DNA of 64,000 nucleotides from Marinobacter sp. SS13-12. Its GTDB lineage: Bacteria > Pseudomonadota > Gammaproteobacteria > Pseudomonadales > Oleiphilaceae. Location: assembly GCF_030227115.1 (NCBI RefSeq), contig NZ_JASSUA010000003.1, positions 416,579-480,578 on the forward strand, given 5' to 3'. Under the pieces are notes generated by a model. That model searched no databases, had not been told where the DNA came from, and worked only from the letters and a program-made list of their open reading frames with translations. Both the position numbers and the translations under genes were made by a program. Positions 43,085-62,095 of the stretch are shown here, in pieces (positions within the stretch are counted from its first letter, which is position 1; each line of letters begins with the position of its first letter).

Positions 43085-43134
43085 CTGGCTTCCATGGTTG
43101 GCTGCCTACTGGGCGCCTTGCCGCGCCGTGTACT

Positions 43135-43214
43135 GCGTATAATGTATATTATGTTAAAGCACATGCAGTGTACCGAAAGGTTCATGAGATTTTACCCAGT
43201 ACCGCTCTAACTCA
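43135..43214 (+). repeat. Left terminal direct repeat of the island
   Basis: GCGTATAA (43135-43142), GTTAAA (43153-43158), ATGCAGTGTACCGAAAGG (43163-43180) and TACCGCTCTAAC (43200-43211) recur in the same order and orientation near 57662-57727. The left copy has 10 extra bases after GCGTATAA and one more in the later gap. It lies outside the recombinase gene (start about 43307). Confidence 0.7.
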
Positions 43215-43306
43215 ATATTTGTGCGGTTCTTTGCAAATTCCACCAAAATTTCTCTCCTTTTGTTATGCGCAGTCTTATAGTCGGTTCATAGACACGTAAG
43301 GACAGC

Positions 43307-44728
43307 GTGAAAATGAGTGCCAGGGACCGGTTCCATCTCAAGAAATTTTCCTATCACGGCCAGCTTTCGATCGTCGTAAGTGATACCGGCACGGGCCTGC
43401 CCGCATTGTTGCCGCTTTTGTATCTTCAGACCTGGGGCTTGTCGAAGGCCATCAATACCGTTCAGCAACACATGGTCTCAGTTTGTCAGTGGTACAACTA
43501 TTGGCAGCAAAAGCACAACAGATCGTTTGATGAGGAGTTGTTCGAGAGCTTTCAGCCTGGCTTCCCACTATTAACTCCACTCCAAGCTCTGGACGCAGCT
43601 CTTGTCGATTATCCAGGTTTCGTCATCTTCATCGATTCCGGGAAAAAGTTAACCGACGACCCTTGGCGAGAAGATTACAGGCCGGAGATCGCTGATAGAA
43701 CACGGGATGTCCGTCTAAGTTGTCTGACGCAGTTTTTGCTGTTCTTGGCGAGACGCTACGTTTCATCGCGTTATACCCAGCTCACATCGAGAGAACAAAT
43801 ACTGACACTCGATAGTTATCGAGTGCGCTTTCATGGGGCTCGACGTGAAGCATGTGGACGACTCAATACTCGACAAGGACAGCCTTTCTCCAGAGGGTCT
43901 GAAGGGCAATTAGTCGTCAGAGAGCGAAGTCTGAACGCAGCAGAAGTAAAAGCAATCGCGCTGTGCTCCAGACCGTCGACCTCCAAACAGGATAATCCGC
44001 TGAATCCTTGGCAGAAGCACGTCGACAATAACCAAAAGTCGGTTTTACAGGTGCGAAATCACCTCATTATTAGGCTACTGCTTCATTATGGGCTGCGGAT
44101 CGGAGAACTGTTGCTACTTAGAACAAAGAGCCTAGTTCCTTATGCCTCTGGATCCGGACAAGCGCTGGCAATAACAACATACGACGGTGCGGGGGACCCT
44201 CGAAAAGTTGCGCCCAGGCTCAAAAATGCGTGGTCAGAGCGGTTACTGGAGCTTGCCTCCGAGGACATCAAACTCTGGGAGTTGTACGTCGATCATCTGC
44301 GAGGTATGCCCAGCCCCCCTCACCCCTTTTTACTCGTCAATACACGAAAGAATCACGGCCCTCTGTCTATGCGTGCAGCCCAGAACGTGTTTGATGATCT
44401 CTACCGAACGCTGCAGCAACATTTTCCGGGGCTATGCAGTGTTGAGTTAGGCGGCACGTTGACTGCGCTCCATGCTCACATGTTCCGATTCACCTGGGCA
44501 ACGGATACTTTCGAGGCTTTGGTGGAACAGGATGGCTGCGATTTCGAGACAGCAAAAGACCGGCTGCGCCAGCTCGGAGGATGGAGTCAGACAAGTCCGA
44601 TGCCGCAGAAATATGCCGCCAGATACATTTCCAAGAGCGCAAATGCCGCGAATCTTCGTCGCTTAAAGGCTCAGCGTCGATTGAGCGCCCAGTCGCAAGA
44701 AAAACAAATGGAGCCAGAGTACCGATGA
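43307..44728 (+). CDS. Tyrosine recombinase A of island trio
   Basis: A 473-residue tyrosine-recombinase-type integrase. The catalytic set is visible: Arg in LLLHYGLRIGELLLL, the HxxR-like ALHAHMFRFTWA, a downstream QLGGWSQ box, and the nucleophile Tyr in PQKYAARYISK. The N-terminal 200 residues would be the core-binding domain. The start may be GTG 43307 (AAGGA just upstream) or ATG 43313. The stop overlaps the next gene's ATG. The gene is more AT-rich than the host genes around it, consistent with transfer. Confidence 0.9.
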   Translation: MKMSARDRFHLKKFSYHGQLSIVVSDTGTGLPALLPLLYLQTWGLSKAINTVQQHMVSVCQWYNYWQQKHNRSFDEELFESFQPGFPLLTPLQALDAALVDYPGFVIFIDSGKKLTDDPWREDYRPEIADRTRDVRLSCLTQFLLFLARRYVSSRYTQLTSREQILTLDSYRVRFHGARREACGRLNTRQGQPFSRGSEGQLVVRERSLNAAEVKAIALCSRPSTSKQDNPLNPWQKHVDNNQKSVLQVRNHLIIRLLLHYGLRIGELLLLRTKSLVPYASGSGQALAITTYDGAGDPRKVAPRLKNAWSERLLELASEDIKLWELYVDHLRGMPSPPHPFLLVNTRKNHGPLSMRAAQNVFDDLYRTLQQHFPGLCSVELGGTLTALHAHMFRFTWATDTFEALVEQDGCDFETAKDRLRQLGGWSQTSPMPQKYAARYISKSANAANLRRLKAQRRLSAQSQEKQMEPEYR

Positions 44729-46356
44729 GGGTTTCAGTAAAACCGGGACGAAATAGCGAGCCGACTTCGGCCCAGAGTGCATCGGAGGGCAGGACGGTTC
44801 TAGAAGAGCTGCTCTCCGAAGACTTGGTTCAGGCTATTTCCCAGCGACCAATGAGAAGATTCATCCCGTTATTCGCGCCTGATCCAAATGACACTCAGTA
44901 TCTCGACACTTCCGAACAATCATGGGCTTTGCGGTCATCTGGGAATAATTTTGTCTTTGACTTTGAGCGTTATGCTGAAAAAGCAGCCAAGACCGCAGGT
45001 GATGAGCGTTTCCTCGCAGATCGCACGGTTGCCATCACTCATTTGCTCCGTTGGGCAGCGGGCCGATTTCTGGGATCCTACTCACCTGCATACGCGTTCA
45101 GGCTTCTTGAGTATTGCTCGGTCATGTTCACGGGTTTAAGTGTGTTTGACTCGAAAAACTGCATCGAGCGTCTCAAGAAACTGAAGGAGCGAGACGCCTA
45201 TTTCCCTTGGAAACGATTGATTGCTCTGTGTTGCGAAAATGAGCTCCCGGGATTCTCATCCGATGATTTGTTTGACCTTGAGGCGCTTCAACCATTAACA
45301 CCAAGGGACGAATGGCAAGCTTATTATGATCTTGAACTGAAACTAAAACCGGCAGTCATTCGCTTCATAGAGATGGGTGTAGGTCGTGATCTTGCGATTC
45401 TCCATGATAGAACGACCAGTGAGCTCCGAGGGCTAGCCACGCTTGTCTTGTGTTTAGAGGGTGGCATGCGCCCTGCCCAGCTATTCAAATTGAAAGAAGA
45501 AGACTTCAAGAACCTGCACAATCGCTATTTCTCCATCAGCATACCGCCTGCCAAACAGGCCAAGCGGGTCGACAAGGCTCCATTTGAACTGGATTTGAGC
45601 CCGGAAGCCGGCGCCATCATCCAGGCTTTGATTGATCGATATCGGCCGGATCTGGCAAATGGCCAGCTGTTGCGGCTCCCCGATGGATCCCTGGCTATGG
45701 CGAAAAGCTTCGACAAGGCTCTGAATTCTCGATTGCGAGCCTGGGCCGCCCGGAATTTCGTAGGCCCAATGCCAGAAACCGCCGAGCTCAAGGATTTCCT
45801 ACGTCACCTCCCTCACCTGACGGCCTATGATTTCCGCCACCACGTAGGCCATAGCCTGGCGATGTCTGGCGCATCGGCCGATCAGATTGCCCGAGTACTT
45901 GGCCACAGCAGCACCGTGGCGGCCCGTCACTACATAGCCGCAACGCCGGAATTGGCGGTGATCAAACAAAAAGCTCTTGGTGAAAACGCGGCCTACCAGG
46001 AAATGATGGGCATGATTCTCACTGGTGAAATCGGCGAGGAATCGGATTGGCGCGGCCGGAAAGTCGCGGGCATGGTCGGTAACCGTTTGTTTACAGGCAT
46101 TGGTGGATGCAGTTCCAGCTCCTGCGATTTTGAGCCGGTCCGGAGTTGTTATGGCTGCAGCGACTTCAATCCCTTCCTGGATGGAGACCACGCCGGCGTC
46201 AGGGACGCGTTGAAGGCTGAGGCTGCGAGTCAGCTTGCGATTTCAGACGCCGCCGGCCAAACCCACCGAAATCCTGCCGTTATGCAACTCGAGGGCGTGA
46301 TCGCCGAAGTCCAGGTGGTGATCAATCACTGCAAGCATCGGAAGGGCTGCCAGTGA
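44725..46356 (+). CDS. Tyrosine recombinase B of island trio
   Basis: A 543-residue integrase. The start is the ATG at 44725, overlapping the previous stop by four bases. Active-site segments: Arg in LCLEGGMRPAQLFKL, the box YDFRHHVGHSLA (Tyr replaces the usual His of HxxR), RVLGHSSTVAARHYIAA with His and the nucleophile Tyr. After the catalytic domain comes a Cys-rich tail (GGCSSSSCDFE, then SCYGCSDF), which may bind zinc, as in TnpB-like recombinases. It probably acts with recombinases A and C. The stop overlaps the next GTG. Confidence 0.9.
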   Translation: MRVSVKPGRNSEPTSAQSASEGRTVLEELLSEDLVQAISQRPMRRFIPLFAPDPNDTQYLDTSEQSWALRSSGNNFVFDFERYAEKAAKTAGDERFLADRTVAITHLLRWAAGRFLGSYSPAYAFRLLEYCSVMFTGLSVFDSKNCIERLKKLKERDAYFPWKRLIALCCENELPGFSSDDLFDLEALQPLTPRDEWQAYYDLELKLKPAVIRFIEMGVGRDLAILHDRTTSELRGLATLVLCLEGGMRPAQLFKLKEEDFKNLHNRYFSISIPPAKQAKRVDKAPFELDLSPEAGAIIQALIDRYRPDLANGQLLRLPDGSLAMAKSFDKALNSRLRAWAARNFVGPMPETAELKDFLRHLPHLTAYDFRHHVGHSLAMSGASADQIARVLGHSSTVAARHYIAATPELAVIKQKALGENAAYQEMMGMILTGEIGEESDWRGRKVAGMVGNRLFTGIGGCSSSSCDFEPVRSCYGCSDFNPFLDGDHAGVRDALKAEAASQLAISDAAGQTHRNPAVMQLEGVIAEVQVVINHCKHRKGCQ

Positions 46357-48788
46357 AGCAGGTTATCGAGAATCTTCAGCGCTTCATCCAGGCCCGTCGG
46401 GACTATTATGAGGCCGAGATCGAGCCTGTAACTCAGCAGCCATGGAGTGCGACGACCTGGGGTAATCAAAGCACCGGTTGGCTATCCATTCGAGCGGGAA
46501 AAAGCTCAATGGCTCACACCGAAATTTCCCGCATGAAGGGATTTGAGAGCCAGGTGATCGCCGACAGGGACTATGTCGATTTCATCAAGGCAGTTGTGGT
46601 GCACCAGTATGAGAAAGCCCCGGCCAATAGAAAGCCTTCGCCCCAGAGCCTACTGCTCACCCACCTGACTCTGAAACGCATTTATGCTGGCCTCAGAGCG
46701 ACTCGCCAGCAGACCAATCCAATCTACATCGACACATCGGTCTTCCAGTACATCGACGAAACGCTCGTCTCTGTGGGCTACAAGAACGTCTTCGATGCCA
46801 TGACGAACGCGAATACCGTCCAGCGGCTACTGATCCAGGAAGGCCTGACTTTGACAGCGCCACAGTACGAGCACAAACACACAGCCGATAACAAGAAGAA
46901 CCGCGGTAAGGTCGCACGGAAAGCGGTCAAGGACGGTGTGGTTGATGACCGGTCCAGAGATGACGACGAACAAAGGCTGATCACGTTCGCCGCTCTGAAA
47001 GGCTTTGCCGCGATCACGACCAGCCCTCGCCACTATTGGGAAGAGCTGGGTTGCCGGGTGGTTGACCTTCTGTTCTGCACCGGTCTGCGAGGCGATGAAG
47101 TTCTTTTCCTCCCCCGAGGTTGCTGGGTTACGCGCCCTTTGCAGAGCAAAGAGACGGGGATGCCATTAATCGCTGCAGACGGCTCACCAATGGAGCAACA
47201 CGGAATCCGCTATTACGCCGAGAAGCATGCCGAAAACCGAATCCACTGGTTCGAAAGCAATGCCGCGCCAATTGCCAGGCGGGCTTATCTTCGAATTCTC
47301 GAACTGACGAACCCGTTTCATCAGCACGCTCGGTGGCTCGTTGAATCTGGCGGAAAGCACATCCTGAACTGGAAGGAATCCACCGTTTCCGAGTCGGACC
47401 TGATCAACCAAATCATCGAAAGTAACGTTCGATACACCGAGACGAAAGATGAGCGCCCTCTCTACCAGCGCCTCCAAAATGGTGTTCGCAGTTGGGTTAA
47501 AGCCAGAAAGCTTTCGCCTATTGGATTTCAGACCAAACCCGGGGTTGCCCGGGGTAAGGTTCAAGAGCCCATATACAGTTTTGCCGACGTCGAGGAAGTG
47601 GTGCGATCGTATCTTCCGGATCCGGCAAACCCGATAAATTACGAATTCCTGGTTGGCCAACGCCGCGTCACCATGCGAATCGATGAACTGCTTCTAGTTG
47701 GCCCCAGCAGCCCCATCGGTCTGGCCCGTGGTGCTCGAGTGCTGCCCGCCGTGCAGCCGATGAAACTCGTCGATCTGAATGCCTTCATCGGCGGAAACGC
47801 AGCCAATAAAAGCGTTTTCGATGTCCGGGAGTACACAGAGGAAAACGGTGGCCGTATCGAGTGGAGGTCCCACCATCCGCGCCACAACCTGAACACGTTT
47901 TTAGCGTTAGCCGGTGTGTCAGAGCATCTGCAGGCCATGATCATGGGCAGGATGGACATCACTCAGAACCGCTACTACCAGCACCTCACGGAAAACGAGC
48001 GCCAGTCTGCCCAAAAGCGGTTGATCGAATACCGAAAAACTCCCCTGCCAAGCGCCAACCAACATGGCGATGCCGCGCCGGAGGGTACCGCAAGTTCTGC
48101 CTCTGCCCTGGCTGAACTCGGCGACACCCTGCTCACCGAACTGGTACAGGACCTCGGCATTGCTAAGGCCTCCCTGCAGGATCTCGAGCGCCCCCTACGC
48201 CAGGCGTTTCATGCCTTCGACACCGAAGAGCAAACACTGAACTTTGTTTCCACGGCCCTGGATGCCGACGTTTTGGTTGGCGAATTACAGAACGACTATA
48301 ACCGCGCCAAATCTCAGGATGGCCCGGAGCATGCACAAAACTTTATCGAAACCCACGGCCGCGACTTTCACATCGTGGTAAACGGCGCCTGCACCCGCAA
48401 CCTGGCACTCCATGGATGCCCCAAGAAGCTCAAATGCCTACAGGGCGGCGGTTGTGGCAATCTCCTGGCAACCGGCCGCCCGGGCGAACTGGAGGGGCTG
48501 GAGCGCAACTATACGAACATGGCAGCGCATCTGGAGCAGCTTGAACGGCACCAAGCAAACGACCCCGCTTATGAAGAGGCACTTCAGGAAAGCCGTGAGA
48601 TGACGAGCCAAATGAAAATTACCGTCGAGCGTGCCCGAGAAGCCCGCGACAAGAACCTCGTCTTGCAGGTATTCCCGTCGGGATTACTCCATAACGTATC
48701 TCGCCCGGAAACCCTGGCAGACCGCTTTGCGGCTGCCCTGCCCGACTCGAATCAGCCTCAGGAGGAAAGCCATGGCGCTGCAAGGTGA
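46353..48788 (+). CDS. Tyrosine recombinase C of island trio
   Basis: The largest recombinase, 811 residues, starting at GTG 46353 in a GTGA overlap. The catalytic Arg is in LLFCTGLRGDEVLFL, the HxxR box is RSHHPRHNLNTFLAL, and the nucleophile is in RMDITQNRYYQHL. The C-terminal region carries a Cys/His-rich segment, NGACTRNLALHGCPKKLKC and GGGCGNLL, typical of zinc-binding in these proteins, followed by a charged helical tail. It ends 17 bases inside the small fourth gene. The function within the trio is not defined. Confidence 0.9.
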   Translation: MKQVIENLQRFIQARRDYYEAEIEPVTQQPWSATTWGNQSTGWLSIRAGKSSMAHTEISRMKGFESQVIADRDYVDFIKAVVVHQYEKAPANRKPSPQSLLLTHLTLKRIYAGLRATRQQTNPIYIDTSVFQYIDETLVSVGYKNVFDAMTNANTVQRLLIQEGLTLTAPQYEHKHTADNKKNRGKVARKAVKDGVVDDRSRDDDEQRLITFAALKGFAAITTSPRHYWEELGCRVVDLLFCTGLRGDEVLFLPRGCWVTRPLQSKETGMPLIAADGSPMEQHGIRYYAEKHAENRIHWFESNAAPIARRAYLRILELTNPFHQHARWLVESGGKHILNWKESTVSESDLINQIIESNVRYTETKDERPLYQRLQNGVRSWVKARKLSPIGFQTKPGVARGKVQEPIYSFADVEEVVRSYLPDPANPINYEFLVGQRRVTMRIDELLLVGPSSPIGLARGARVLPAVQPMKLVDLNAFIGGNAANKSVFDVREYTEENGGRIEWRSHHPRHNLNTFLALAGVSEHLQAMIMGRMDITQNRYYQHLTENERQSAQKRLIEYRKTPLPSANQHGDAAPEGTASSASALAELGDTLLTELVQDLGIAKASLQDLERPLRQAFHAFDTEEQTLNFVSTALDADVLVGELQNDYNRAKSQDGPEHAQNFIETHGRDFHIVVNGACTRNLALHGCPKKLKCLQGGGCGNLLATGRPGELEGLERNYTNMAAHLEQLERHQANDPAYEEALQESREMTSQMKITVERAREARDKNLVLQVFPSGLLHNVSRPETLADRFAAALPDSNQPQEESHGAAR

Positions 48789-49221
48789 AAAGCTAACCCA
48801 GGCCATCGAGCATGAACTCATGCTGATGTTGGCGTCCGGCTATGAAGAGGCGGCAATCACGCCAGCGTCCCTCCACAAAAGGCTGGTCGCAAAGACCATC
48901 ATCAAAGGCAAACTCAGCTCGTTGAGCAGCCGCAGGCCTTTAATTGATCGCTATGCCAACCTTCAGATGGAGCGCGCTGGCATAAAAGGCGCCCGCGAGA
49001 AAAGTAGCGCAAAGCGAGGACGAACCCGAGCCGGTTACAAACAGCGTTACGAGGAGGCCCAAGCCGAAATACGGGTTTTGAAGAACAGGCTGGATGGGAA
49101 CATATCGACCATCCTTGACCTGGTTCGATACATCGAATCGACCTCCCCAATTCCAGTGGAGAAGCTTCTCGCTGGTCACCTCCTTGAGGCCTACGCTCAT
49201 TCCCATGGACAAAAACGGTGA
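48772..49221 (+). CDS. Small helical protein completing the recombinase module
   Basis: The start is the ATG at 48772, preceded by AGGAGGAAAG and lying inside the end of recombinase C. The 149-residue product is charged and helical with a coiled-coil-like part (KQRYEEAQAEIRVLKNRLDG). Its position after the recombinases recalls TnpC of Tn554, a small accessory protein affecting orientation and frequency of transposition; sequence homology is not shown. It could be a recombination directionality or DNA-bridging factor. Confidence 0.7.
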   Translation: MALQGEKLTQAIEHELMLMLASGYEEAAITPASLHKRLVAKTIIKGKLSSLSSRRPLIDRYANLQMERAGIKGAREKSSAKRGRTRAGYKQRYEEAQAEIRVLKNRLDGNISTILDLVRYIESTSPIPVEKLLAGHLLEAYAHSHGQKR

Positions 49222-49270
49222 CCAGTGTCACCGTCGGGACCGAACTATGAAGTCGTTTCCTGACAGCCCA

Positions 49271-49290
49271 GAAAACTCACTGCAGTTTTC
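49271..49290 (+). terminator. Possible terminator after the recombinase operon
   Basis: GAAAACT and AGTTTTC form a 7-bp stem around a 6-base loop, followed by ATTTTAAT. It sits 49 bp past the module's last stop and overlaps the convergent DUF1778 gene's end. The stem is short and AT-rich, so support is moderate. Confidence 0.4.
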
Positions 49291-49558
49291 ATTTTAATCT
49301 GAGTCGGTGCTGCATCGCGGAGACCAATGCCTCATTGGCAACGTCTGGAGACGCACAGTTGGCTTGAAAAGCCTGGAATGAGTCGGTGTCTAAGGTGATG
49401 GTTTCAGCCTCCTGGAAAACGCGGTCGGTTTTTTCAAGTATGGCCTGTTCGATAAACCTGTCCAACGTTTCGAAGCCTGCCAAAGAGGCAGCACACCGAG
49501 CACGCTGCTCCGTTACCGGGTTTAATTCCAATGAGTGTCTCGCCGAATCTTTGGACAT
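49289..49558 (-). CDS. Orphan DUF1778 (TacA-type) antitoxin-like protein
   Basis: An 89-residue protein with the DUF1778 ribbon-helix-helix region (LELNPVTEQRARCAASLAGF, then LDRFIEQAILEKTD) and a C-terminal toxin-binding-like part ending in ASPDVANEALVSAMQHRL. DUF1778 proteins are antitoxins of GNAT toxins (TacT), normally the next gene. Downstream on this strand there is only the recombinase module, so the toxin is absent. It may be a relic or an independent repressor. Confidence 0.75.
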   Translation of the reverse strand: MSKDSARHSLELNPVTEQRARCAASLAGFETLDRFIEQAILEKTDRVFQEAETITLDTDSFQAFQANCASPDVANEALVSAMQHRLRLK

Positions 49559-49585
49559 GAACTCCTCGCAGCTACCTGACAGTCA

Positions 49586-51166
49586 CTACGCTGTTGATGA
49601 AACCAACTGTTGCTCCCCCTGATCGGTGAAGGCAGGATCCAGTGCCACGTGTAGGACAGTCCCACGCTTGGAATTGGACATAAAACGTATTTTTCCTCCC
49701 TGCACCTCTGTCATCAATTTTGCAGAATAGGTCCCCAAGCCCGTCCCTTGTGCCTTATTGGCTGTTGTGTACTTGTCGAAAAATGTATCCCTCAAGCTGT
49801 CGGGAATGGTCCCTTTATTATGGATCATCAGATTAATTTTCGCTTTTTTGTTCAACATGATGTAGACGATATGGCCCGGTGGGGAGGCTTCAACGGCATT
49901 CTTAAGTAAATTTCGCAACAGGGAAAGACACAAACTTTCCTCCCCGAGGCAAAAGCAGTTCGGGTCGGGTCGCAGAGATAGACGGACCTGCTTTTGGTTT
50001 GCTTCACTTTTCATTTCTCGAATGACCCTTTTTGCTAATTTGACCAAATCCACGGAAGTCGGCTCAAACCGGTAGACACCTGTCTCCATTTTGTAAAGAT
50101 CAAGGGTTCGGTTCACCATATTGAGAGCGTCAAAACCTGCGTCTCGCATGGTTTCCAATGCGCCCGCGACATGTCTTGCCCATGGTCCATTTTGCAACAA
50201 CGCGTCGGCAGTAGAGATGATGGCGGACAAAGGGCTTTTTATGTCGTGGCGCGTCATACGTTCAACATCCTCTCGCAGGCGGGCGTTCTCCAGCAGAGTA
50301 TCAATGTGGTTACGCAAGTCTTCTTTCGCGTGCCGGATTTGGATGTGTGTCGCGACGCGTGCTTGAAGCAACGTGGGGTCTACCGGTTTGGTGATGTAAT
50401 CAACGCATCCCGACTTGAATCCGCGAGTAATCTCATTTGATGTTGCTTGTGTTGTCAGAAATATAACCGGTATTGCAGCTGTCGAAGGGTCATTTTTTAA
50501 CTGGTGACAGACGTCATAGCCAGTTGTGTCCGGCAGCATTACCTCCATCAGGATGAGGTCTGGTGCCTCAAGAGCACGAACCATTTCCAAGGCTTCCTCT
50601 CCACTGATTGCGGATCTAATTTTATGAAACTGCTTTAGGATGGGCGCAACGGATTTTTCCATCGCTAAGTCGCCCACCAGCATTACCGTGGCGCTTCCAA
50701 AATCGTGACCAAATGCCTCGTTCGGTGTTTCCTGAGTTTCTTCCGCAGCTGGGATGATTTCTGCCGGGCCAGCGTGTTTAACCTGATTCGTAATTTTGTT
50801 GACCCGATACTGGAGATCCGCGTAGGTAAAAGGCTTGATAAGGAACTGGGTAACGCCTTCTTCGATCGCCGCGCTGACCAAAGTCCTGTCGCTTTCGGCC
50901 GTCACCATCATAAAAGGAATGCTGCGCCAGGCAGGTGTTTTTCGTATTATTTTCAGCAGTTCCATGCCATTCATTTTTGGCATGTTGCTATCAGAAATTA
51001 TCAAATCAACGCGATTGGTGGCTAGCAGAGCTAGTGCCTGCTCACCGTTTTCAGCAAGCGAAACGTTGTTCAGCCCCATCAATCGAAGACTATCTTTCAC
51101 CATTTTCCGCATAGCGGCGATGTCCTCTACAACTAAAATGGACATTGACTGAGAAGGAAAAACCAT
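49586..51166 (-). CDS. REC-REC-histidine kinase signalling protein
   Basis: A 526-residue cytosolic protein. The first receiver (about 8-125) has the acidic pocket VVEDIAAMRK, phosphoacceptor Asp59 in IISDSNMPKMNG and Lys in FLIKPF. The second receiver (about 158-275) is abnormal: the acceptor position is Glu208 (LILMEVMLPDTTG) and the acidic pocket reads MLVGDLAME, though the Lys in YITKPVDP is kept. HisKA follows with His307 in MTRHDIKSPLSAI, then HATPase_c (NLLKNAVEASPPG, GTGLGTYSAKLM). AAGGG lies before the ATG. No output domain other than the kinase is present; a partner is unknown. Confidence 0.9.
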   Translation of the reverse strand: MVFPSQSMSILVVEDIAAMRKMVKDSLRLMGLNNVSLAENGEQALALLATNRVDLIISDSNMPKMNGMELLKIIRKTPAWRSIPFMMVTAESDRTLVSAAIEEGVTQFLIKPFTYADLQYRVNKITNQVKHAGPAEIIPAAEETQETPNEAFGHDFGSATVMLVGDLAMEKSVAPILKQFHKIRSAISGEEALEMVRALEAPDLILMEVMLPDTTGYDVCHQLKNDPSTAAIPVIFLTTQATSNEITRGFKSGCVDYITKPVDPTLLQARVATHIQIRHAKEDLRNHIDTLLENARLREDVERMTRHDIKSPLSAIISTADALLQNGPWARHVAGALETMRDAGFDALNMVNRTLDLYKMETGVYRFEPTSVDLVKLAKRVIREMKSEANQKQVRLSLRPDPNCFCLGEESLCLSLLRNLLKNAVEASPPGHIVYIMLNKKAKINLMIHNKGTIPDSLRDTFFDKYTTANKAQGTGLGTYSAKLMTEVQGGKIRFMSNSKRGTVLHVALDPAFTDQGEQQLVSSTA

Positions 51167-51175
51167 GCGGATCCC

Positions 51176-51403
51176 TTATTGGCTTGATGTGGTTCGGTGA
51201 GGGTGTGTAGCTGTTCTCGGAGGTACGCTTGGCCCATTTAGGCGCGTTAGTCCGAAGTTGCACCCAGCAATGGAGCGGATGACCGTCGAGGATTGAAAGG
51301 GAAAAACTGTCCTGGTTATGTTGGTATAATCGCTGGTACCGACACCAGTTATCCATAACCCGTTAAGTGGCGGGGTAACGATTCTTTGCACGTCGTCGGA
51401 CAT
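51176..51403 (-). CDS. Small protein upstream of the REC-REC kinase
   Basis: A 75-residue ORF starting at 51403 with AGGAG seven bases upstream, and ending 9 bp before the kinase start on the same strand. It is rich in Thr and Ser with no clear domain. The ribosome site and spacing favour a real small gene, perhaps co-expressed with the kinase. The family is not recognised. Confidence 0.4.
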   Translation of the reverse strand: MSDDVQRIVTPPLNGLWITGVGTSDYTNITRTVFPFQSSTVIRSIAGCNFGLTRLNGPSVPPRTATHPHRTTSSQ

Positions 51404-51948
51404 ATACCAACTCCTGAAACGCCGAAGTTCAGAATCCCCGCATTTGTCTACATTTTGTCTCTAGCTTAGTCACAGCAATTTTAGAACTCAAATTTCCAGC
51501 CAGCTGTTCCGGTGGTTGATAATTTAAAGTGGCAGCCCTGATGAAATTCGGGGCAAGTGATACGCTCCAATCTTGGCAACGTAGTTGTTGGTTCAGGCCA
51601 AAGGTGCTTCACCTTATGGTCGGCCTGTCGATTAACCCAGTTGACCAACCTCAGCGTAGTGGCTGGGTAAACCGAGGACCGTTTTCGATGTTGCGCCGTC
51701 AGTGTTTGTGTCGGGTTTGAGAAAAATTCCGTGTTTCTAGGCGTCAAAGCAGAGCCTAGGTGTTCTGACAACAGGGAGCCGTAACATTTCGTTACGCAGC
51801 TTTGATTCTTTTTTGAACTACGCTTGTCAGTGTTTGATCGTGAAAAAGCCACGAAGGACGCCGATACCGTGAGCCAATGGGCTCCATAACTGAAGGCGAA
51901 GGTACTACCTAGAATTCGTAAAGACTCATTTATTCACAAGGCAGTCAA
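51404..51948. other. Gene-poor 545-bp stretch inside the island
   Basis: No supported gene was seen here. Short open frames exist on both strands but lack ribosome sites or recognisable domains. It must hold the promoters of the kinase unit (minus) and of the EAL gene (plus). Confidence 0.5.
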
Positions 51949-53670
51949 ATGAATAGAGAGAGCAGTAGCTATCTTCCTACCCTCGAAAACATATGGCACT
52001 CCGAAAAATGGCCACAATTGTCGGGATTGGCTAGAGCGGTTTGCAGGCTACTCGTTATTATTGTTCTATTAACCGCTGGAACCTGGGTTGTTTTCGCCAC
52101 CGGAGGCACCGGTTACGCATATCCTTACGTCATTCTGGTACCGATACTGTTATCCGCTGTTTGGTTTGGGCTGCCCGGGGCAGTGCTCTGCGCGATAACG
52201 GGAGGTATTCTTATTGGCCCGTGGATGCCCCTTGATGTCTCAAATGGCACGTCCCAGTCAATGGACAACTGGCTGGCACGAATCGCTTTCTTTCTTCTCA
52301 TTGGAAGTTTTTCAGCGGGACTTTTTCAAAGCCTGAAACTAGCCAATGAACGCAGGCTTCAGGCGCTCGAAGTCGATCACAAGACCGGACTTCGGACGCA
52401 AGCTGCCCTGACACGAGATATTGAAAGATTGCTTCGACGGGCAAGTCAGGATAAGGCTCCTTCGGCAGCGATACTCTTGGTGAGGATGCAGGACTTGTGG
52501 GAGATTTTGCAGTCCTTGGGCGCTGACACTGCTGAACAGGTGGTGAAAGACCTGGCTGAGCGTATCAGTCAAAATATACAAATACCCCACCAGATTTATC
52601 GATTCAGCAAATCCGAGCTGGCGATTTTATTCTCCGTTGTTTCGTGCAACGACGTGGACCGCCAAGAGGAAGTGGGCTCTGTTTTCGAAGTTGCTCAGAG
52701 GGTTGGTGAAGCGGAAACCATTGTCAAAGGTATTTCGCTCCGTGTCCAGATTGTTGCCGGAAGCTACCTTGTTCGAGAAAACGATCAGAATCCCGAGATT
52801 GTTATCAACCGCGCAAGAACTGGTTTGTCGGTAGCAATTGAGAATAATGTTCCCTACCGCCGTTACGATCCGATGTTCGACCAAAAAACTGCAGAGCGTG
52901 TACAGCTCATAGCGCGGGTCCGCGATGGGTTAGAGAATCAGGAGTTTCAGCTATTCTACCAGCCCAAAATATGTATGCGGTCCGGCCAACTCGTCGGTTC
53001 AGAGGCTTTGCTGCGCTGGTTCGACCGTGAAAACAGAATGGTTATGCCTGGCCTGTTTATGCCCAAGGTTGAAAGTACGACGCTGATAGATCCTGTGACG
53101 CGCTTCGTGATTGCTAGAGCATGCGAAAATATGAGGTCGCAGAATCTCATGCCGGTTAGTGTCAACTTCGCAATCAACAACTTGATGAATCCCTCATTAA
53201 TTAATGATCTGGGGAGGCTGGTTTCTTCATACGGCGTAAGTCCGGAATGCCTTGAAATTGAAATTACGGAAGGCGCACTCATCCAGGATCCTCAACACGC
53301 AAAAGAAGCCGTCGCGAGTCTTCGGGACCAGGGTTTTAAAGTCAGTCTGGATGATTTCGGCACAGGCTATTCTTCGTTTCAGTACCTGACACATCTGCCG
53401 CTGTCCGGATTGAAAATTGACCGGGCTTTTGTCAGTAATCTGGAAGTCAGCGCAGAGGCTCGGACGATCATGGAATCCATGATCTCTATGGCCAAAGCAT
53501 TAAAACTTGAGGTAACGGTAGAGGGTATTGAGACAGAGCAACAAAGGAAAATAGTTACCGATTTGGGCGCAGACCTGGCTCAGGGCTTTCACTACTCGAG
53601 GCCTCTTGCCTTACCTGAGTATCAGCAGTGGGCAAAAGACCGCAAGCGCCTAAAGGCTGACCGACATTGA
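51949..53670 (+). CDS. Membrane EAL phosphodiesterase with degenerate GGDEF
   Basis: A 573-residue protein. An N-terminal DUF4118-like region (about 28-125) has four hydrophobic helices (RLLVIIVLLTAGTWVVFA, LARIAFFLLIGSFSAGLF). A GGDEF-like domain follows, but the GGDEF motif position reads YRFSKSELAIL, so cyclase activity is lost. The EAL domain is intact (GSEALLRWFD, IEITEGALI, LDDFGTGYSSFQYLT, LKIDRAFV, EGIET), implying c-di-GMP hydrolysis. It belongs to the island cargo and has a convergent GGDEF fragment at its end. Confidence 0.9.
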   Translation: MNRESSSYLPTLENIWHSEKWPQLSGLARAVCRLLVIIVLLTAGTWVVFATGGTGYAYPYVILVPILLSAVWFGLPGAVLCAITGGILIGPWMPLDVSNGTSQSMDNWLARIAFFLLIGSFSAGLFQSLKLANERRLQALEVDHKTGLRTQAALTRDIERLLRRASQDKAPSAAILLVRMQDLWEILQSLGADTAEQVVKDLAERISQNIQIPHQIYRFSKSELAILFSVVSCNDVDRQEEVGSVFEVAQRVGEAETIVKGISLRVQIVAGSYLVRENDQNPEIVINRARTGLSVAIENNVPYRRYDPMFDQKTAERVQLIARVRDGLENQEFQLFYQPKICMRSGQLVGSEALLRWFDRENRMVMPGLFMPKVESTTLIDPVTRFVIARACENMRSQNLMPVSVNFAINNLMNPSLINDLGRLVSSYGVSPECLEIEITEGALIQDPQHAKEAVASLRDQGFKVSLDDFGTGYSSFQYLTHLPLSGLKIDRAFVSNLEVSAEARTIMESMISMAKALKLEVTVEGIETEQQRKIVTDLGADLAQGFHYSRPLALPEYQQWAKDRKRLKADRH

Positions 53671-53912
53671 TCTTTTCGCGACTTACAAGGGTTGGCACCA
53701 AGGCAGGCGGGCTTTGCAACTTGTCGATCATCACCTTTCCAGAAGACGCGATTACGCCCGGCTCCCTTGGCACCGTAGACCGCTTGGTCTGCGCGTTTCA
53801 AGGCAGCTTTTAGTGAGGATATGTCGACATCAACCAACGTCACCCCCAGCGAGACCGTATAGTGCAGTTTGCCATCATCACAAATATCCAGATTAACCGG
53901 ATCGCAAACACC
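53622..53912 (-). pseudogene. C-terminal fragment of a GGDEF domain
   Basis: On the minus strand an open segment reads LHYTVSLGVTLVDVD, then LKAALKRADQAVYGAKGAGR and NRVFW, which is the end of a GGDEF domain. Upstream the frame hits a stop at about 53915, so the catalytic half is missing. The last part overlaps the end of the EAL gene. It is a truncated remnant. Confidence 0.7.
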
Positions 53913-53960
53913 CGTTCAGGGTCAGCGCAAAAACAAGACGCACCCGATTTACGGATACCC

Positions 53961-54464
53961 TTATGCTGATTCCCATTCGTCTACATCAAAGGTTTTAAGG
54001 TTTGCCCGCCGGTATTTTGCTATTAGTCCCCACATATCTCGCCCAAGGTAACGATGGCAAGCCCACTGCCAAGAGCGGCTACAACCTCCACCTATCATCA
54101 TTAAAGGGAAATCACACTGAGCTTCTCTGTGCTCTGCAATCCTACGAAGTGTTTTCTTGTCAATTCGGCTCATCTTAGCGAGCCCATTTGGATGGGTGTG
54201 CCAATCTCCAAGATATGTCATTAGGCCTGATGATTTGAGATAGATTTCTTCTAGCTGCTCGCATTGCCAATCGTGGTCAGGCTCAAAATGAATGAAATCA
54301 TGTCTAGCGTTGGGGCCGGGCCCGGTGAAAGCGCAAATAACGGGTATGCCCTTTTCTGATGTATAACCCGCGAGTACGCCACCGGTTTCATAGGGGAAAG
54401 CCCGGTCGGCCTCTAATTCCATGCCCTCGACGACTGAGCAGCTCGCCCATACCGTCTCTCTCAC
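53961..54464 (-). CDS. JAB/MPN (JAMM) metalloprotease of Ub-like cassette
   Basis: A 167-residue predicted zinc isopeptidase. The JAMM residues are Glu26 in YETGGVLAG, and HxHx7SxxD: His89, His91, Ser99, Asp102 in DWHTHPNGLAKMSRID. Cap3 of type II CBASS and bacterial Ub-like operons encode such proteases to remove or process conjugates. The start is taken as GTG 54464, forming a GTGA overlap with the E2-E1 gene stop; a GTG at 54473 is possible. It is the last gene of the cassette. Confidence 0.9.
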   Translation of the reverse strand: MRETVWASCSVVEGMELEADRAFPYETGGVLAGYTSEKGIPVICAFTGPGPNARHDFIHFEPDHDWQCEQLEEIYLKSSGLMTYLGDWHTHPNGLAKMSRIDKKTLRRIAEHREAQCDFPLMMIGGGCSRSWQWACHRYLGRDMWGLIAKYRRANLKTFDVDEWESA

Positions 54465-56218
54465 GGGGAACACCGGTTACAGTGCTGATGTGCTCCCAGT
54501 GAGCTGGTTGTCCATCGAGGGGCGAGAGAGACACCAGTCTTTTTGTCCCAGAAATCACCAACTGCCACGTCCCAATCGAAATCGGGATATCTGCTTTCGT
54601 CGTTATCCGACAGCGTCGCTATGGCCAAACGACATCCCAGAACCACCACTTCCTCACTATCGATACCGGCTCCTATAAACGTTGCCTGGGCGCATCCGCC
54701 CGGTTGTATATCCTCTCCGCCAGAATCAGCCGGGGGCTCTATGGTCTTGTCGCCCAGCGCGTATTGAAAGCAATGCCAGCAGCCTTTTGTTTTGCCAGGC
54801 ACTACTCTGCCCAGAGTCCCACCCGCCGCACCATGTGTTGTGGTAAGCCATAAGTAAGGTTTTTCCATGCTAGCAGTGAGGTCCGCAATGAAATGATTAA
54901 CGCGGTAGCTAGCGCTTGCATCAATCACCAGATCAGCGTGACCAACCAGGTGCTCTAAGACATCCCGGTCGGATTGCTCCCGTGCTCCATGAGGCAGCCC
55001 AATGTTCACATAATGTGGTTGGACCCGAGTGTAAGGGTAATTCGTTTCGATAAAACCAGCTATTGCATGAGTTTTTAATAGGCCTGCAGCTTGCCACCCC
55101 AAGGCCCACCGGATCGTATTACCGACTTGGACAACATCACGGTCAATAAGATGCAATTCACCGACCCCGGCACTGGCCAACTTAAGAGCAAGGGAAGATC
55201 CTAGACTGCCCACTCCAATCAAAACGACTTTTTTGTCTCGAACACTCTGCAAAAAAGGGGCGCGCATGAGCCATGCTTCTTCTCCACCCCAATCTGGCCT
55301 GACAAATGCCGTGCGCAGCCGAGAAGGCCTCGATTTTCGTGCACCTTGCTCAACTCTGATTGCAATGAAAAACCAGTCATCACGGTGCTCTCTCCATTCA
55401 ACTTCGTCTTCGTAGACAAAACCAATAATAATGACTGTTCCTGTCTTTGCTTTCGCAAGACGCTTTCTGAAGTCAATAATGCGGTCTTTGGCATTTTGGA
55501 TAAGCTGAGTTTGCAGCTCTCCTGCGTCTTTGATGGCAGCAACATCAGGAGGCCCCGGCAACCTCATCCAAAACGCCTTATCGCTATCAGTGAAAACCGG
55601 AGGACTCGAAACCCCTGCCAATATAGGCTTGCCTTCAGAGTCTTGTATTTCCTCTATCGCACCGTTTACCACCACGGCTGGATTATCAACTTCTTCGGGC
55701 AACTTCCTTTTCTTCAATTTCAGATATCCATGAGAGATGGTCGGACTGGGCGAGGAGTCGGGGACCACAATCGATGAATGAGGATGGCTTTGAAGAAAAG
55801 CGGAAAATGGCTCGCCGATATGATCTTCAATTTCTGCTTGTAGGTCTGGGTTACCGTTTTTCTGGTTCGTAACGTAAATCTGCGGGAACTGGTCTTCAAC
55901 GAGAGTTGCCAGCCTATCTACACCCGGTCGCCAGTCCTCGTTTTCCCTCTCCAACAGGCAAAGATTGCGATTCCAGGGGTGTTGGTGGCGAGTAAAGAAA
56001 TGGTTCTTCACCGTCACCTGTGGCGGAAAGTAGGGGTAGCTATCCGGGTACTCTGCCGTGAGCTCAAAAGCTACCCCCTCGTGCGTCACCTGTAGGTCTA
56101 TGACCAGGCGTCCTTGTTCCTGGTCATCTTTTCGGATTTCCCACTGGAAGTCTGAGGCTCTTAGCGCATCCAATTCTGCCTCGAATTCTTGAGGGTAGTT
56201 CTGCCACCAGCTAGTCAT
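54461..56218 (-). CDS. E2-E1 fusion (Cap2-like Ub-conjugation enzyme)
   Basis: A 585-residue fusion. The N-terminal part (about 1-120) is an E2-like UBC fold: PDSYPYFPPQVTVKNHFF, HPW (80-82) in the place of HPN, and a catalytic Cys87 in RNLCLLERE. After a linker (about 150-320), the E1/ThiF adenylation domain has the nucleotide loop VVLIGVGSLGSSLAL (Gly335-Gly340) and the acidic LIDRDVVQVGNTIRW. The expected E1 catalytic Cys is Cys509 in QPGGCAQATFIGAG. Two CxxC pairs, 480/483 and 580/583, may bind zinc. It resembles Cap2 of type II CBASS, but no CD-NTase gene is present. The start is 2 bp after the upstream small gene. Confidence 0.92.
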   Translation of the reverse strand: MTSWWQNYPQEFEAELDALRASDFQWEIRKDDQEQGRLVIDLQVTHEGVAFELTAEYPDSYPYFPPQVTVKNHFFTRHQHPWNRNLCLLERENEDWRPGVDRLATLVEDQFPQIYVTNQKNGNPDLQAEIEDHIGEPFSAFLQSHPHSSIVVPDSSPSPTISHGYLKLKKRKLPEEVDNPAVVVNGAIEEIQDSEGKPILAGVSSPPVFTDSDKAFWMRLPGPPDVAAIKDAGELQTQLIQNAKDRIIDFRKRLAKAKTGTVIIIGFVYEDEVEWREHRDDWFFIAIRVEQGARKSRPSRLRTAFVRPDWGGEEAWLMRAPFLQSVRDKKVVLIGVGSLGSSLALKLASAGVGELHLIDRDVVQVGNTIRWALGWQAAGLLKTHAIAGFIETNYPYTRVQPHYVNIGLPHGAREQSDRDVLEHLVGHADLVIDASASYRVNHFIADLTASMEKPYLWLTTTHGAAGGTLGRVVPGKTKGCWHCFQYALGDKTIEPPADSGGEDIQPGGCAQATFIGAGIDSEEVVVLGCRLAIATLSDNDESRYPDFDWDVAVGDFWDKKTGVSLAPRWTTSSLGAHQHCNRCSP

Positions 56219-56220
56219 AA

Positions 56221-56349
56221 TTATCCCACCGGGCGGTGACCGGGCGGTTTGGGGGCACCTTCACCGGGATTTGGCCGATTTCCCGGCGGTCCAGGTGGCA
56301 CATCTGGATGTTCCGGTTTATTGGGGTTGTCAGGTTTTCCTTTACTCAT
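56221..56349 (-). CDS. 42-residue proline-rich protein ending in glycine
   Basis: A short gene on the same strand as the E2-E1 gene, only 2 bp before it. The start is the ATG at 56349, with GAGG about nine bases upstream. Of 42 residues, 14 are Pro and 7 Gly; there is no Cys, aromatic residue or hydrophobic segment. The last residues are GHRPVG. The tight spacing suggests co-translation with E2-E1. It takes the place that a Ubl or CD-NTase gene holds in related operons. It may be a conjugation substrate through its C-terminal Gly; this is inference, and no beta-grasp fold is possible at this length. Confidence 0.7.
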   Translation of the reverse strand: MSKGKPDNPNKPEHPDVPPGPPGNRPNPGEGAPKPPGHRPVG

Positions 56350-56456
56350 AGTGCTAAGCCTCGCTGTTCAACTTACAAGAAATGTGTAGTGATCAAGAAC
56401 TTTGTCACCTGATCACAAAGCAACTTTACGCTCAAACTTTAATCGATGCAATACTT

Positions 56457-56489
56457 TTTATCACGTCATACATTTTATGACGTGATAAA
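56457..56489. promoter_or_regulatory. Perfect 14-bp inverted repeat operator for the WYL regulator
   Basis: TTTATCACGTCATA (56457-56470) and TATGACGTGATAAA (56476-56489) are exact reverse complements around CATTT. The centre lies about 50 bp upstream of the WYL gene and 125 bp upstream of the Pro-rich gene. It is a likely operator controlling both directions. A weaker dyad (GTGATCA and TGATCAC, 56389-56416) lies nearer the cassette start. Confidence 0.75.
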
Positions 56490-56523
56490 TTGTGGTGGTA
56501 GGTGCTAAGCTGTTTCAAACACC

Positions 56524-57414
56524 GTGAGCGATATTGAAATGACTCAACAGCGTGACATCCAGCGAGAACGCCTGTTTTTTATTGAATTTCTTGCGATTTT
56601 TTCGGGCCAAGTGAGCCGAAAAGACCTCGTTACGAGATTTGGAATCAGCGAGCCAGCTGCCACTAAAGACCTTGCTCTGTACGGGGACCTGGCACCAGGA
56701 ATGTTGGAGTATGACCTTCGTAAAAAAGCCTATTTGCTTGGTGGTAGTGAGGAGGATGCCCTTTTTAAGCATGATGTTAATCAGGCTCTTTTTGCGCTGG
56801 TCGGCGAGAGAGCTATCGCTTTGGGGCATGACAGAGCTAGGCGGCTTGAAGGTTGGGTAAGCGGAAGCATCAAGCGAGCATTGCCGTTAGGTTTGGTGTC
56901 TACCATTACACGATGCATCTACCTAAAGCGGAAAATGACTGCCACATACTTGTCTTTGAATAGCGGTAAAAAGACTCGTTTCCTATCGCCACTCGCTCTT
57001 GTCCATGACGGATTGAGATGGCATGTCCGCTGCTTTGACGAGCAAAACGCCGACTTCAGAGACTTTAACCTTACCAGGTTTTACAGTGCTAAGTCGGATT
57101 CCCTGTCTGATGCTTCTCTTGCCCACGACGAAGCATGGAATACAGAAGTCACCTTAGAGTTATCCCCACATCCCAAAGCCGAATTTCCAGATACTATAAG
57201 CCTTGATTATGCTATCGAAGGAAAAGTGAAGACAGTTCAATTAAAAGCGTGTTTGGTCGGATACTTCTTGCGGGAGTGGAATATTGATTTCTCTGATGAA
57301 GCAAAGGGCAACCCAAGGGCCCAACATCTGTACTTAGCCAATAAAATGCAGCTCCTTGGTCAAGGCGTGCCGGAGTGGGCGCTAAAAAGTGACCTGGATG
57401 GCGAACACCAATAA
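56524..57414 (+). CDS. WYL-domain transcription regulator (CapW/BrxR-like)
   Basis: A 296-residue protein. The N-terminal winged helix covers about 12-80 (EFLAIFSGQVSRKDLVTRFG, ISEPAATKDLALYGDLAPGM). Then comes a WYL ligand domain (FLSPLALVHDGLRWHVRCFD, FNLTRF) and a WCX-like C-terminus (ACLVGYFLREWNIDF). CapW and BrxR regulators of this architecture repress CBASS, BREX and other defence operons and bind inverted repeats. It is divergent from the E2-E1 cassette with a perfect dyad between them. The start may be GTG 56524 or ATG 56539. Confidence 0.88.
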   Translation: MSDIEMTQQRDIQRERLFFIEFLAIFSGQVSRKDLVTRFGISEPAATKDLALYGDLAPGMLEYDLRKKAYLLGGSEEDALFKHDVNQALFALVGERAIALGHDRARRLEGWVSGSIKRALPLGLVSTITRCIYLKRKMTATYLSLNSGKKTRFLSPLALVHDGLRWHVRCFDEQNADFRDFNLTRFYSAKSDSLSDASLAHDEAWNTEVTLELSPHPKAEFPDTISLDYAIEGKVKTVQLKACLVGYFLREWNIDFSDEAKGNPRAQHLYLANKMQLLGQGVPEWALKSDLDGEHQ

Positions 57415-57637
57415 GCCCGAGAGGCCATCAGGTTTTACCCCGTTGCCAGCGTTTGCGGCAACCGGGATTCTTCTATCGCAGTGCCAGCCTTTGTTTAGCA
57501 GGCAGCAGCAACCAACGCTCAGCGGGTCGAGTAAGTTCATGAGAAGAGCGATTTTGATGCTGCATGAAGTATCTGGTGAACCAAACCCAGTCGCTATAGA
57601 GCTAGGCCGTTGTTTAAGTGAGATTTATTGGAGTTAG
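57398..57637 (+). CDS. Possible small ORF at the right end of the island
   Basis: A 79-residue open frame, overlapping the end of the WYL gene by 17 bases. It starts MANTNKPERPSG and has no recognised domain; the C-terminal part (MRRAILMLHEVSGEPNPVAI) looks helical. There is no clear ribosome site. It ends just before the right repeat. Confidence 0.25.
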   Translation: MANTNKPERPSGFTPLPAFAATGILLSQCQPLFSRQQQPTLSGSSKFMRRAILMLHEVSGEPNPVAIELGRCLSEIYWS

Positions 57638-57661
57638 TCTAGTTCAATGAACAACACAACC

Positions 57662-57730
57662 GCGTATAAGTTAAATACGATGCAATGTAGAGAAAGGCCC
57701 ACCACTTTTGGCGAATACCGCTCTAACCCA
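57662..57730 (+). repeat. Right terminal direct repeat of the island
   Basis: GCGTATAA (57662-57669), GTTAAA (57670-57675), ATGCAATGTAGAGAAAGG (57680-57697) and TACCGCTCTAAC (57716-57727) match the left-end repeat in order and orientation. Within the 18-base block 15 bases are identical; the 12-base block is identical. Confidence 0.7.
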
Positions 57731-57778
57731 GTAACTCTGAGCTTTCCTGTAAAAACCACCGAAAATCGCCCTTTTGAT

Positions 57779-58603
57779 TTAAAAAACATAAATGAAGCCA
57801 ACACCGATCTCCGCTTCATAATCATTCCGAGATATTGGGCTATCTGAAACGTCACTCCCATAGACTTCGTAAAGAGCTTCACCGAAGATCTGCCAGTTTT
57901 CGTTCAAGTAATTTCGATAGTTAACATTGACACCTGTTGATCTATACCCGCTATCAACATCGGTTTCTGGAAGACCTGAATCTTGGGCTTGCCGTGTGTT
58001 CACACCAAAGTCCCGATTGGCTAACTTACTATCGTGAAAAGTGACAGCAGCGCCAATTTCCCAGCCAGTGCCGTCAGGTTGGCAGCCCAAACAAGTTCCT
58101 GCACCGAAAATCCCTAGTGTGCCGATTTCGCCTGTTAATACACGGCCATCCAAAAAGTAACGCCAATCGTCTGCAAGCGCATGACGCACTTCCAACAGCA
58201 ATGTCACCCCTGAACTCGATTCGCCTAACCCATCCAGTCTGCCATCTTCTGAATCACCCTCTTCACGGCCTTCTTCGTAGCCTACAGAGGCTTGAAACAA
58301 CCAGGTATCCTCGGCCAATGTTCGCCATCCAATGGCTTCACCTGCCCAGAAAAAAAGGTGTTCCCCAGTTCGCCACTGAACAGCCCCAGCCGGATCGACC
58401 TCAAGCTCGAACTCGTCCGAGCCCTCGTAAGCAGTCTCATATTCAACGCTCAGCCCAAGCCCAACACCCCAACCGTCACCATTTGTAAAATCGCCAATAG
58501 AAGGAAGCGGAACGAGAGAGGTTCTCGCCTCCGTCGCATTTACCGATCCAAAACATGAAAGAGCGCCTAGAAATGTGGCGACTTGAAGGACTATTTTTTT
58601 CAT
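57779..58603 (-). CDS. MipA/OmpV-like outer-membrane protein
   Basis: A 274-residue protein beginning at the ATG at 58603, after AGGTGA. A signal peptide ends near SVNA (about residue 23). The mature part is made of amphipathic beta-strands with a terminal aromatic motif (EIGVGFIYVF) typical of outer-membrane barrels. It resembles MipA/OmpV-type proteins, which scaffold murein synthesis or mediate permeability. An internal CLGC pair is unusual for a barrel. It is host flank of the island. Confidence 0.75.
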   Translation of the reverse strand: MKKIVLQVATFLGALSCFGSVNATEARTSLVPLPSIGDFTNGDGWGVGLGLSVEYETAYEGSDEFELEVDPAGAVQWRTGEHLFFWAGEAIGWRTLAEDTWLFQASVGYEEGREEGDSEDGRLDGLGESSSGVTLLLEVRHALADDWRYFLDGRVLTGEIGTLGIFGAGTCLGCQPDGTGWEIGAAVTFHDSKLANRDFGVNTRQAQDSGLPETDVDSGYRSTGVNVNYRNYLNENWQIFGEALYEVYGSDVSDSPISRNDYEAEIGVGFIYVF

Positions 58604-61880: not shown

Positions 61881-62095
61881 TTGGAAATTTCCCAACCCCA
61901 ACGATGCTCTCAAGGCGGTTCAGAAGCAAACGGTTCCGGGTCTTTCGTTTCCATTTGTAACTTCATTGACTATATTGGTACTGGTGATTGGGATTATTGA
62001 TCCCCTATAAACGACATTGCCTAAACGCTCAGTTTGTCTGGTGCGCTCCAATGTCGGCGCAGTTTTTCCAGGTAAATCAGCAAGGAGAACATCGA

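Follow-up and report, generated by a model that had tools for sequence, protein, structure and literature searches.

A Short Pro-Rich Peptide as the Proposed Modifier of an E2-E1/JAMM Operon in Marinobacter

Known conjugation systems and the Marinobacter operon

Type II cyclic-oligonucleotide-based antiphage signaling (CBASS) operons carry a CD-NTase gene followed by Cap2, an E2-E1 fusion, and Cap3, a JAMM protease. In the portions of Jenson 2023 (PMC10097602) that treat this chemistry, conjugation goes through the C-terminal residue of the CD-NTase, Cap3 cuts at the same place, and Gly/Ala is conserved at the CD-NTase C-terminus only if the operon also encodes Cap2 and Cap3. Similarly, part of another report (PMC11153139) describes a Bacillus cereus CBASS in which the cyclase, with the last peptide KPGGFA, is joined to lysines of PspA. 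Herein, a related operon was analyzed in a window of 64,000 nucleotides from Marinobacter sp. SS13-12 (contig NZ_JASSUA010000003.1, positions 416,579 to 480,578; all coordinates below are those of this window). The operon and its regulator gene lie at 53961..57414, and the slot of the CD-NTase is taken by a gene for a 42-residue Pro-rich peptide. The three-gene operon is likely to be a self-contained ubiquitin-like conjugation system with this short peptide as the modifier. This reading is based on the position of the peptide gene, its conservation, and the chemistry of its relatives.

The operon is tight and is read from the minus strand. The peptide gene (56221..56349) comes first and encodes a protein with the C-terminus ...GAPKPPGHRPVG. 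The gene of the 585-residue E2-E1 fusion (54461..56218) starts 2 nt past the peptide stop codon, and the gene of the 170-residue JAMM metalloprotease (53961..54473) overlaps the E2-E1 gene by 13 nt. A 296-residue WYL regulator of the BrxR/CapW type is encoded on the plus strand (56524..57414), divergent from the operon. Coordinates and profiles confirmed this layout, which had been described in a first-pass annotation of the stretch.

The likeness to type II CBASS covers both gene order and enzymes. An E2-E1 fusion is followed by a JAMM gene, the candidate substrate gene stands directly upstream and is Gly/Ala-ended, a CapW-family regulator is present in some copies of the cassette, and Cap2 is the nearest solved relative of the E2-E1 protein. 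The difference lies in the slot itself, which holds a peptide of 40-88 residues, rich in Pro or His, and no CD-NTase was found at the locus. The tail of the peptide is nearly constant, whereas the penultimate residues of CBASS CD-NTases vary according to the section of PMC10097602 on their C-termini. No effector-like neighbor was common to the 28 loci compared by clustering of open reading frames (ORFs), and a Pfam census of neighbors covered 138 of 178 ORFs and listed 25 of 101 families.

The enzymes were already known from Iyer 2006 (PMC1779556), where the description of type 6c names an E2+E1 protein and a JAB protein in Rhizobium NGR234 along with two further proteins of uncharacterized function, of which one is predicted to bind metal. 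The pNGR234a locus (L031) is a member of the present family with the same three genes, whereas the metal-binding and other extra genes are not common to the family (4 of 28 loci at most for any further cluster of ORFs of at least 70 residues). The Pro-rich peptide is mentioned neither in that paper's passage on type 6c nor in the NGR234 plasmid gene table, which is incomplete. No description of the peptide was found in a literature search that excluded preprints and did not cover the most relevant recent work.

Four other systems share single features with the cassette. The Bil system also combines a bacterial E1, an E2, a deconjugating enzyme and a small modifier, but its BilA-type modifier has two ubiquitin-like domains and its E1 and E2 are separate, as given in part of PMC11354881, whereas the E2-E1 of the cassette is fused. 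No ubiquitin-fold gene was conserved among ORFs of at least 70 residues at the 28 family loci, and the rest of the genomes was not searched for such genes. The modifier of the Pup-proteasome system is a small protein that is intrinsically disordered, and a similar disorder is predicted for the cassette peptide from its composition. The Pup enzymes are PafA and Dop, whereas those of the cassette are ThiF/E2/JAMM; PafA/Dop are absent from the unit shared by the 28 loci, and the genomes were not searched for PafA. The Bub system likewise has an E1, an E2, a deconjugating enzyme and a small modifier, and its modifiers are ubiquitin-like. CapW or CapH+CapP regulators are frequent in Bub operons, as stated in a portion of PMC13373217. 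In 6A-MBL, E2, E1 and JAB form one protein beside a metallo-beta-lactamase, according to the relevant part of PMC1779556, whereas the JAMM of the cassette is separate and no such neighbor is common. Of the NCBIfam models, that of 6A-MBL (NF058523) fits the E2-E1 protein best, with a score of 79.8 bits where the cut-off is 320.

Conservation of the peptide and its enzymes

The first-pass annotation had proposed a survey of homolog neighborhoods for a conserved small Pro-rich gene, and this survey gave the main evidence. Two of the 28 family loci begin inside the E2-E1 gene, which leaves 26 with upstream DNA. In all 26, including Marinobacter, a small Pro- or His-rich ORF was found directly upstream of the E2-E1 gene, no more than 44 nt from its start or match start. 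A PVG/QVG-type ending was required by the filter of this survey, and unfiltered ORF lists were also made. The peptide was then predicted beforehand for six further plasmid relatives and was present in 6/6, including Iamia (Actinomycetota) and Sphingobium. The total is thus 32/32 loci in four phyla, with E2-E1 identity down to ~27%. These 32 loci are not all independent, as they include near copies (L018/L019/L020/L031/L076; L075/L078/L079; L012/L013; L003/L017; L014/L015), and three of the 13 plasmid matches (H8, H11, H12) stand outside the peptide count. While the first-pass annotation had listed the Pro-rich ORF, it had not recognized it as the best candidate for the conjugated moiety; its non-CD-NTase substrate and its mobile island, taken up below, are supported.

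The conservation is concentrated at the C-terminus. Full-length copies have 40-88 residues with the starts chosen in this analysis (L015 is truncated by a contig end). The N-terminal body varies in length and composition, Pro- or His-rich, and the tail is nearly constant, usually HRPVG. Among the 26 loci the tail is RPVG in 22, KPVG in one, RQVG in one, RPVG+R in one (L026), and RPVG+QQ in one (L032), so that Gly is C-terminal in 24. Similarly, 17 database peptides, which in part duplicate genes of the loci, end in RPVG (15), RPVGQ (1) or RPVA (1). Three copies in all thus have residues beyond the Gly, which resemble ubiquitin precursors by analogy. The Marinobacter peptide has 14 Pro, 7 Gly and 4 hydrophobic residues among 42. 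By this composition, one third of it Pro, the peptide is predicted to be intrinsically disordered. In the Burkholderia group (L003, L005, L006, L007, L011, L017) the N-terminal part is His-rich and possibly metal binding.

The last 12 codons were compared in 16 close loci, and the pairwise differences at codon positions 1, 2 and 3 were 0.058, 0.038 and 0.585. The excess at the third position indicates that the tail is a protein kept by selection, and this codon pattern points to strong purifying selection. The third-position pattern and the 32/32 presence rule out a chance ORF or a DNA/RNA element. HRPVG-stop, searched as a DNA pattern with CGN as the Arg codons and TAA/TGA as the stops, matched once in the whole Marinobacter genome, at the peptide gene. 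The Marinobacter peptide matched no family in Pfam, NCBIfam or PADLOC. Several database E2-E1 proteins (P0003, P0004, P0006, P0033, P0060 and others) have extra N-termini that resemble the peptide gene in another frame. We read such early starts as a gene-calling artefact that would conceal the peptide gene.

The E2-E1 protein belongs to a family of homologs. A protein search, which scored the best 7999 candidates by common words, gave 103 rows: the protein itself, 101 relatives at 28-53% identity, and P0103, a different ThiF protein. In L076 and L080 the annotation splits the E2-E1 gene into two ORFs. In 43 aligned members, His78 and Cys87 of the E2 and the Gly-rich loop residues, Asp359, Asp361, Arg370, Lys382, Asp433 and Cys509 of the E1 are invariant; His78 and Cys87 are also invariant across 20 diverse E2 domains. 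The predicted E2 catalytic cysteine, Cys87, is encoded at 55958..55960 (minus strand) within HQHPWNRNLCLL, and Cys509, the predicted E1 catalytic cysteine by analogy, at 54692..54694 (minus strand) within QPGGCAQATF. In the structure model the E2 covers about residues 1-140, a linker domain about 145-310, and the ThiF/E1 domain about 310-585. Fold comparison of the model placed an E2 fold in the N-terminal part and an E1 fold in the C-terminal part; the matches listed for the full model were all E1 domains, and the E2 model (residues 1-134) was compared separately. The fused E2 (Cys87) and E1 (Cys509) that had been read from the sequence are borne out by these residues and folds.

Cap2 is the closest solved relative by profile (5.4e-23), and the protein has both folds of a Cap2 by prediction, yet it stands apart in the tree. 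The family is split from four Cap2 proteins by a 100/100 branch, and the family clade has 87/81 support; the fifth Cap2 is a very long branch, and the tree program warns of long branches. TSG101 UEV domains, which are E2-like folds solved with PTAP/PSAP peptides, are among the matches listed for the E2 model. In this model, the E2 domain may possibly grip the Pro-rich body of the peptide as well.

The E1 matches also include MccB, by profile and by fold, and PaaA, by profile. These are a precedent for a ThiF-type domain that works on a short peptide, and they suggest a pathway like that of ribosomally synthesized and post-translationally modified peptides, in which ThiF would activate the C-terminal end of the peptide, in the manner of MccB with microcin C7, the product would be a small toxin or metabolite, and the JAMM would serve immunity or maturation. 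We regard such a pathway as very unlikely, because the fused E2 with its invariant His78 and Cys87 would have no evident use there, the ORFs of at least 70 residues near the 28 loci include no conserved exporter or tailoring gene, and the conserved part of the peptide is the tail while the rest is variable.

The third gene is equally constant. A JAMM gene stands beside the E2-E1 gene in 28/28 loci (26 by clustering, 2 by profile), as Cap3 does in type II CBASS. Its catalytic residues are complete in 26/26, from which activity is predicted.

The CD-NTase slot and the proposed conjugation pathway

No match to PF18144, the SMODS CD-NTase profile, was found in the whole Marinobacter genome, although this profile may miss some CD-NTase clades. 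In 26 genomes or records searched, which did not include L010, L016 and L075-L080, 16 had no match, 7 had matches above the cut-off, and 3 had weak matches of unexamined location. The 8 SMODS matches in the 7 genomes were all outside the cassette locus. The first-pass annotation had claimed that the cassette conjugates something other than a CD-NTase, and these results support that claim well. A lost CD-NTase gene had been considered as the case against it; none was seen at the loci examined, so this copy has not merely lost its own.

The slot was compared with five control E2-E1 loci outside the family, which were all 4 non-family matches of a phylum sample of genomes and L072, chosen via its SMODS match. 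Three more SMODS loci (L069-L071) without an E2-E1 match were excluded. In each control locus an NTase-type ORF overlaps or touches the E2-E1 start and a JAMM gene comes after, and the ORF tails are GFA, GFA, GFG, GFA and RLG. The CD-NTase in the first four was recognized by our motif pattern, position and tail, not by profile. As judged by these features, the control loci have the type II CBASS gene order. Since an NTase-type ORF with a Gly/Ala end takes this slot in the controls, the peptide seems to replace the CD-NTase. By analogy, it occupies the genomic slot of the CD-NTase and probably also has its biochemical role.

The same gene order could be read as a reduced type II CBASS that acts on a CD-NTase encoded elsewhere, with the small ORF as the remnant tail of a lost cyclase gene. 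The enzymes mirror CD-NTase-Cap2-Cap3, in PADLOC the E2-E1 protein scores highest, at 133.9 bits, with an E1-E2 model, and 7 of the 26 genomes or records do carry an SMODS protein above the cut-off. We give this reading hardly any weight. The Marinobacter genome has no PF18144 match and the 8 matches elsewhere are all outside the cassette loci; the tail is strongly selected and the peptide ORFs have their own candidate start codons; and the fully supported branch separates the family from the four Cap2 proteins.

From the gene order, the conservation, the selection on the tail, the catalytic residues, the predicted E2 and E1 folds, and the lack of a CD-NTase at the locus, a pathway can be proposed. 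The E1 domain would adenylate the C-terminal Gly of the peptide (HRPVG-COOH) and then load the peptide on Cys509. The peptide would be handed on to Cys87 of the fused E2 and from there to amino groups of host or phage proteins, probably those of lysines. The JAMM would trim precursors with residues past the Gly and remove the peptide from conjugates. The BrxR/CapW-like repressor would silence the operon until stress or infection.

Several points weigh against the peptide as a conjugated modifier. A modifier without a fold is unlike the ubiquitin-fold modifiers, and recognition by the E1 would depend on the tail. The Marinobacter copy is already Gly-terminal and needs no trimming, and extra residues occur in only 2/26 loci and 1/17 database peptides. 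The Cap2 sequence match is confined to the E1 part. For the six plasmid relatives added later, E2-E1 starts are annotated from 134 nt before to 430 nt after the peptide end, though these starts are unsure, and the JAMM is annotated in 4/6, with the other 2 unexamined. Finally, no family match was found in 50,697 phage records.

The same genetic data would also fit a peptide that serves as a pseudosubstrate or regulator. Inhibition by a short peptide of this kind is conceivable: its substrate-like Gly tail would plug the E1 site until it is displaced or cleaved, and the true modifier or target would be a host protein with its gene at another place. Among ORFs of at least 70 residues, the neighborhoods contained no second conserved modifier gene. 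This is improbable in our judgment, as a JAMM of the isopeptidase type in 28/28 loci and post-Gly residues in some copies fit a processed, conjugated tag better, and the CBASS gene in the same slot encodes a conjugated protein.

Regulator, mobile island, and distribution

The WYL protein was compared with solved structures, and the matches were 7qfz ("WYL domain-containing protein", 3e-46), CapW 9c5g (1.7e-28) and BrxR 7t8k (1.5e-16). By these matches it is a winged helix-turn-helix WYL relative of BrxR/CapW; the first-pass annotation had noted the WYL regulator and its divergent position. A palindrome with two perfect 14-bp arms and a 5-bp spacer (56457..56489) lies in the divergent promoter region and is a likely, still putative, operator. 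Such arms were reached in 0/1000 dinucleotide shuffles. The binding sites reported for CapW in part of PMC9122588 are palindromes of 19-24 bp that overlie the -10 site. A promoter-like site adjoins the Marinobacter palindrome, but such sites do not exceed chance (2 found vs 3.7 expected). The WYL gene is present in 11/28 loci, and a palindrome was listed in 4 of the 11 by a threshold of our own, which does not support a common operator across loci.

The cassette appears to be at the right end of a mobile island of ~14.6 kb (43131..57781), as the first-pass annotation had suspected. Homology to a cassette-free genome of the same genus (G174) begins sharply at 57781, and just left of this border G174 has a sequence 70% like window positions 43131-43277, where a recombinase-like module has its left end. 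An imperfect direct repeat of 99 bp (68%) is found at both ends, with the left copy at 43150..43248 and the right copy at 57667..57764, both on the plus strand. The module contains four ORFs, three of them large and recombinase-like and one small (43307..49221, plus strand), with a putative tyrosine recombinase by motif reading; two of its ORFs were scanned and matched no NCBIfam model. The module (43131-49221) recurs at 95% DNA identity over 6 kb in another same-genus genome. A tRNA attachment site was considered and rejected, as ARAGORN found no tRNA in the window. Two adjacent large genes stand beside the island, 59880-61913 (677 residues) and 61988-63403 (471 residues), with no or weak NCBIfam matches.

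The family is rare and scattered. Twenty-two loci came from the genome scan and 13 records from a plasmid collection. The hosts include Pseudomonas, Burkholderia, Paraburkholderia, Polaromonas, Methylotuvimicrobium, Sinorhizobium, Brevundimonas, an Acidobacteriota metagenome-assembled genome, a Hymenobacter plasmid, and Arthrobacter and Iamia plasmids. One further true member was found among the other 397 genomes of the phylum sample (E <=1e-30), and none among another 398 and another 384 genomes (E <=1e-60). In a DNA search of 100 same-genus genomes, the only match listed that covers the E2-E1 gene is the window's own. Carriage by phages was not seen either: beside the phage records above, 25 stretches of viral contigs fit a pattern and none was confirmed, and the tail pattern gave 0 matches there.

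The widely common genes at the 28 loci are E2-E1 (28), JAMM (28) and WYL (11); no other cluster of ORFs of at least 70 residues was found in more than 4. The neighbor census by Pfam and PADLOC drew its 138 ORFs from 23 loci and listed 25 of 101 Pfam and 25 of 162 PADLOC families; methylases were found in 3 and integrases in 4 of these ORFs among the matches listed. Clear restriction genes were identified only at L001, L017 and L032, and a defence island as a general rule was rejected. A RES/Xre toxin-antitoxin pair adjoins the cassette upstream in L031, L076 and L077 (Sinorhizobium and Sphingobium plasmids).

Phage defence is perhaps favored by the regulator family, the scattered distribution, and the restriction or toxin-antitoxin neighbors in some loci. 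The conjugation of the peptide may also be real and serve a stress or metal response instead. The His-rich peptides of the Burkholderia group would fit such a role, and copper or heavy-metal genes are found near the Hymenobacter, Arthrobacter and Paraburkholderia tagetis copies. According to part of PMC13373217, CapW-type regulators respond to DNA damage, and phage protection was not demonstrated for Bub operons with such regulators. This alternative is credible but doubtful, as no metal gene is common across the 28 loci (ORFs of at least 70 residues) and other copies lie beside restriction systems or toxin-antitoxin pairs.

To our knowledge, the E1-E2 modifiers known so far are either folded members of the ubiquitin family or, as in CBASS, an entire enzyme. 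We lean toward the view that the cassette represents a third kind of modifier for E1-E2-JAMM enzymes: a disordered Pro/His-rich peptide of 40-88 residues that is read only via its RPVG tail, a Pup-like tag in a portable module that probably acts in immunity, in at least four phyla. If this is true, a tail alone can serve as a modifier, and ubiquitin-type and Pup-type tagging would be linked. The operon would then be a minimal three-gene conjugation module that could be rebuilt in a test tube, and the operon type predicted in 2006 without a stated modifier would have a testable substrate.

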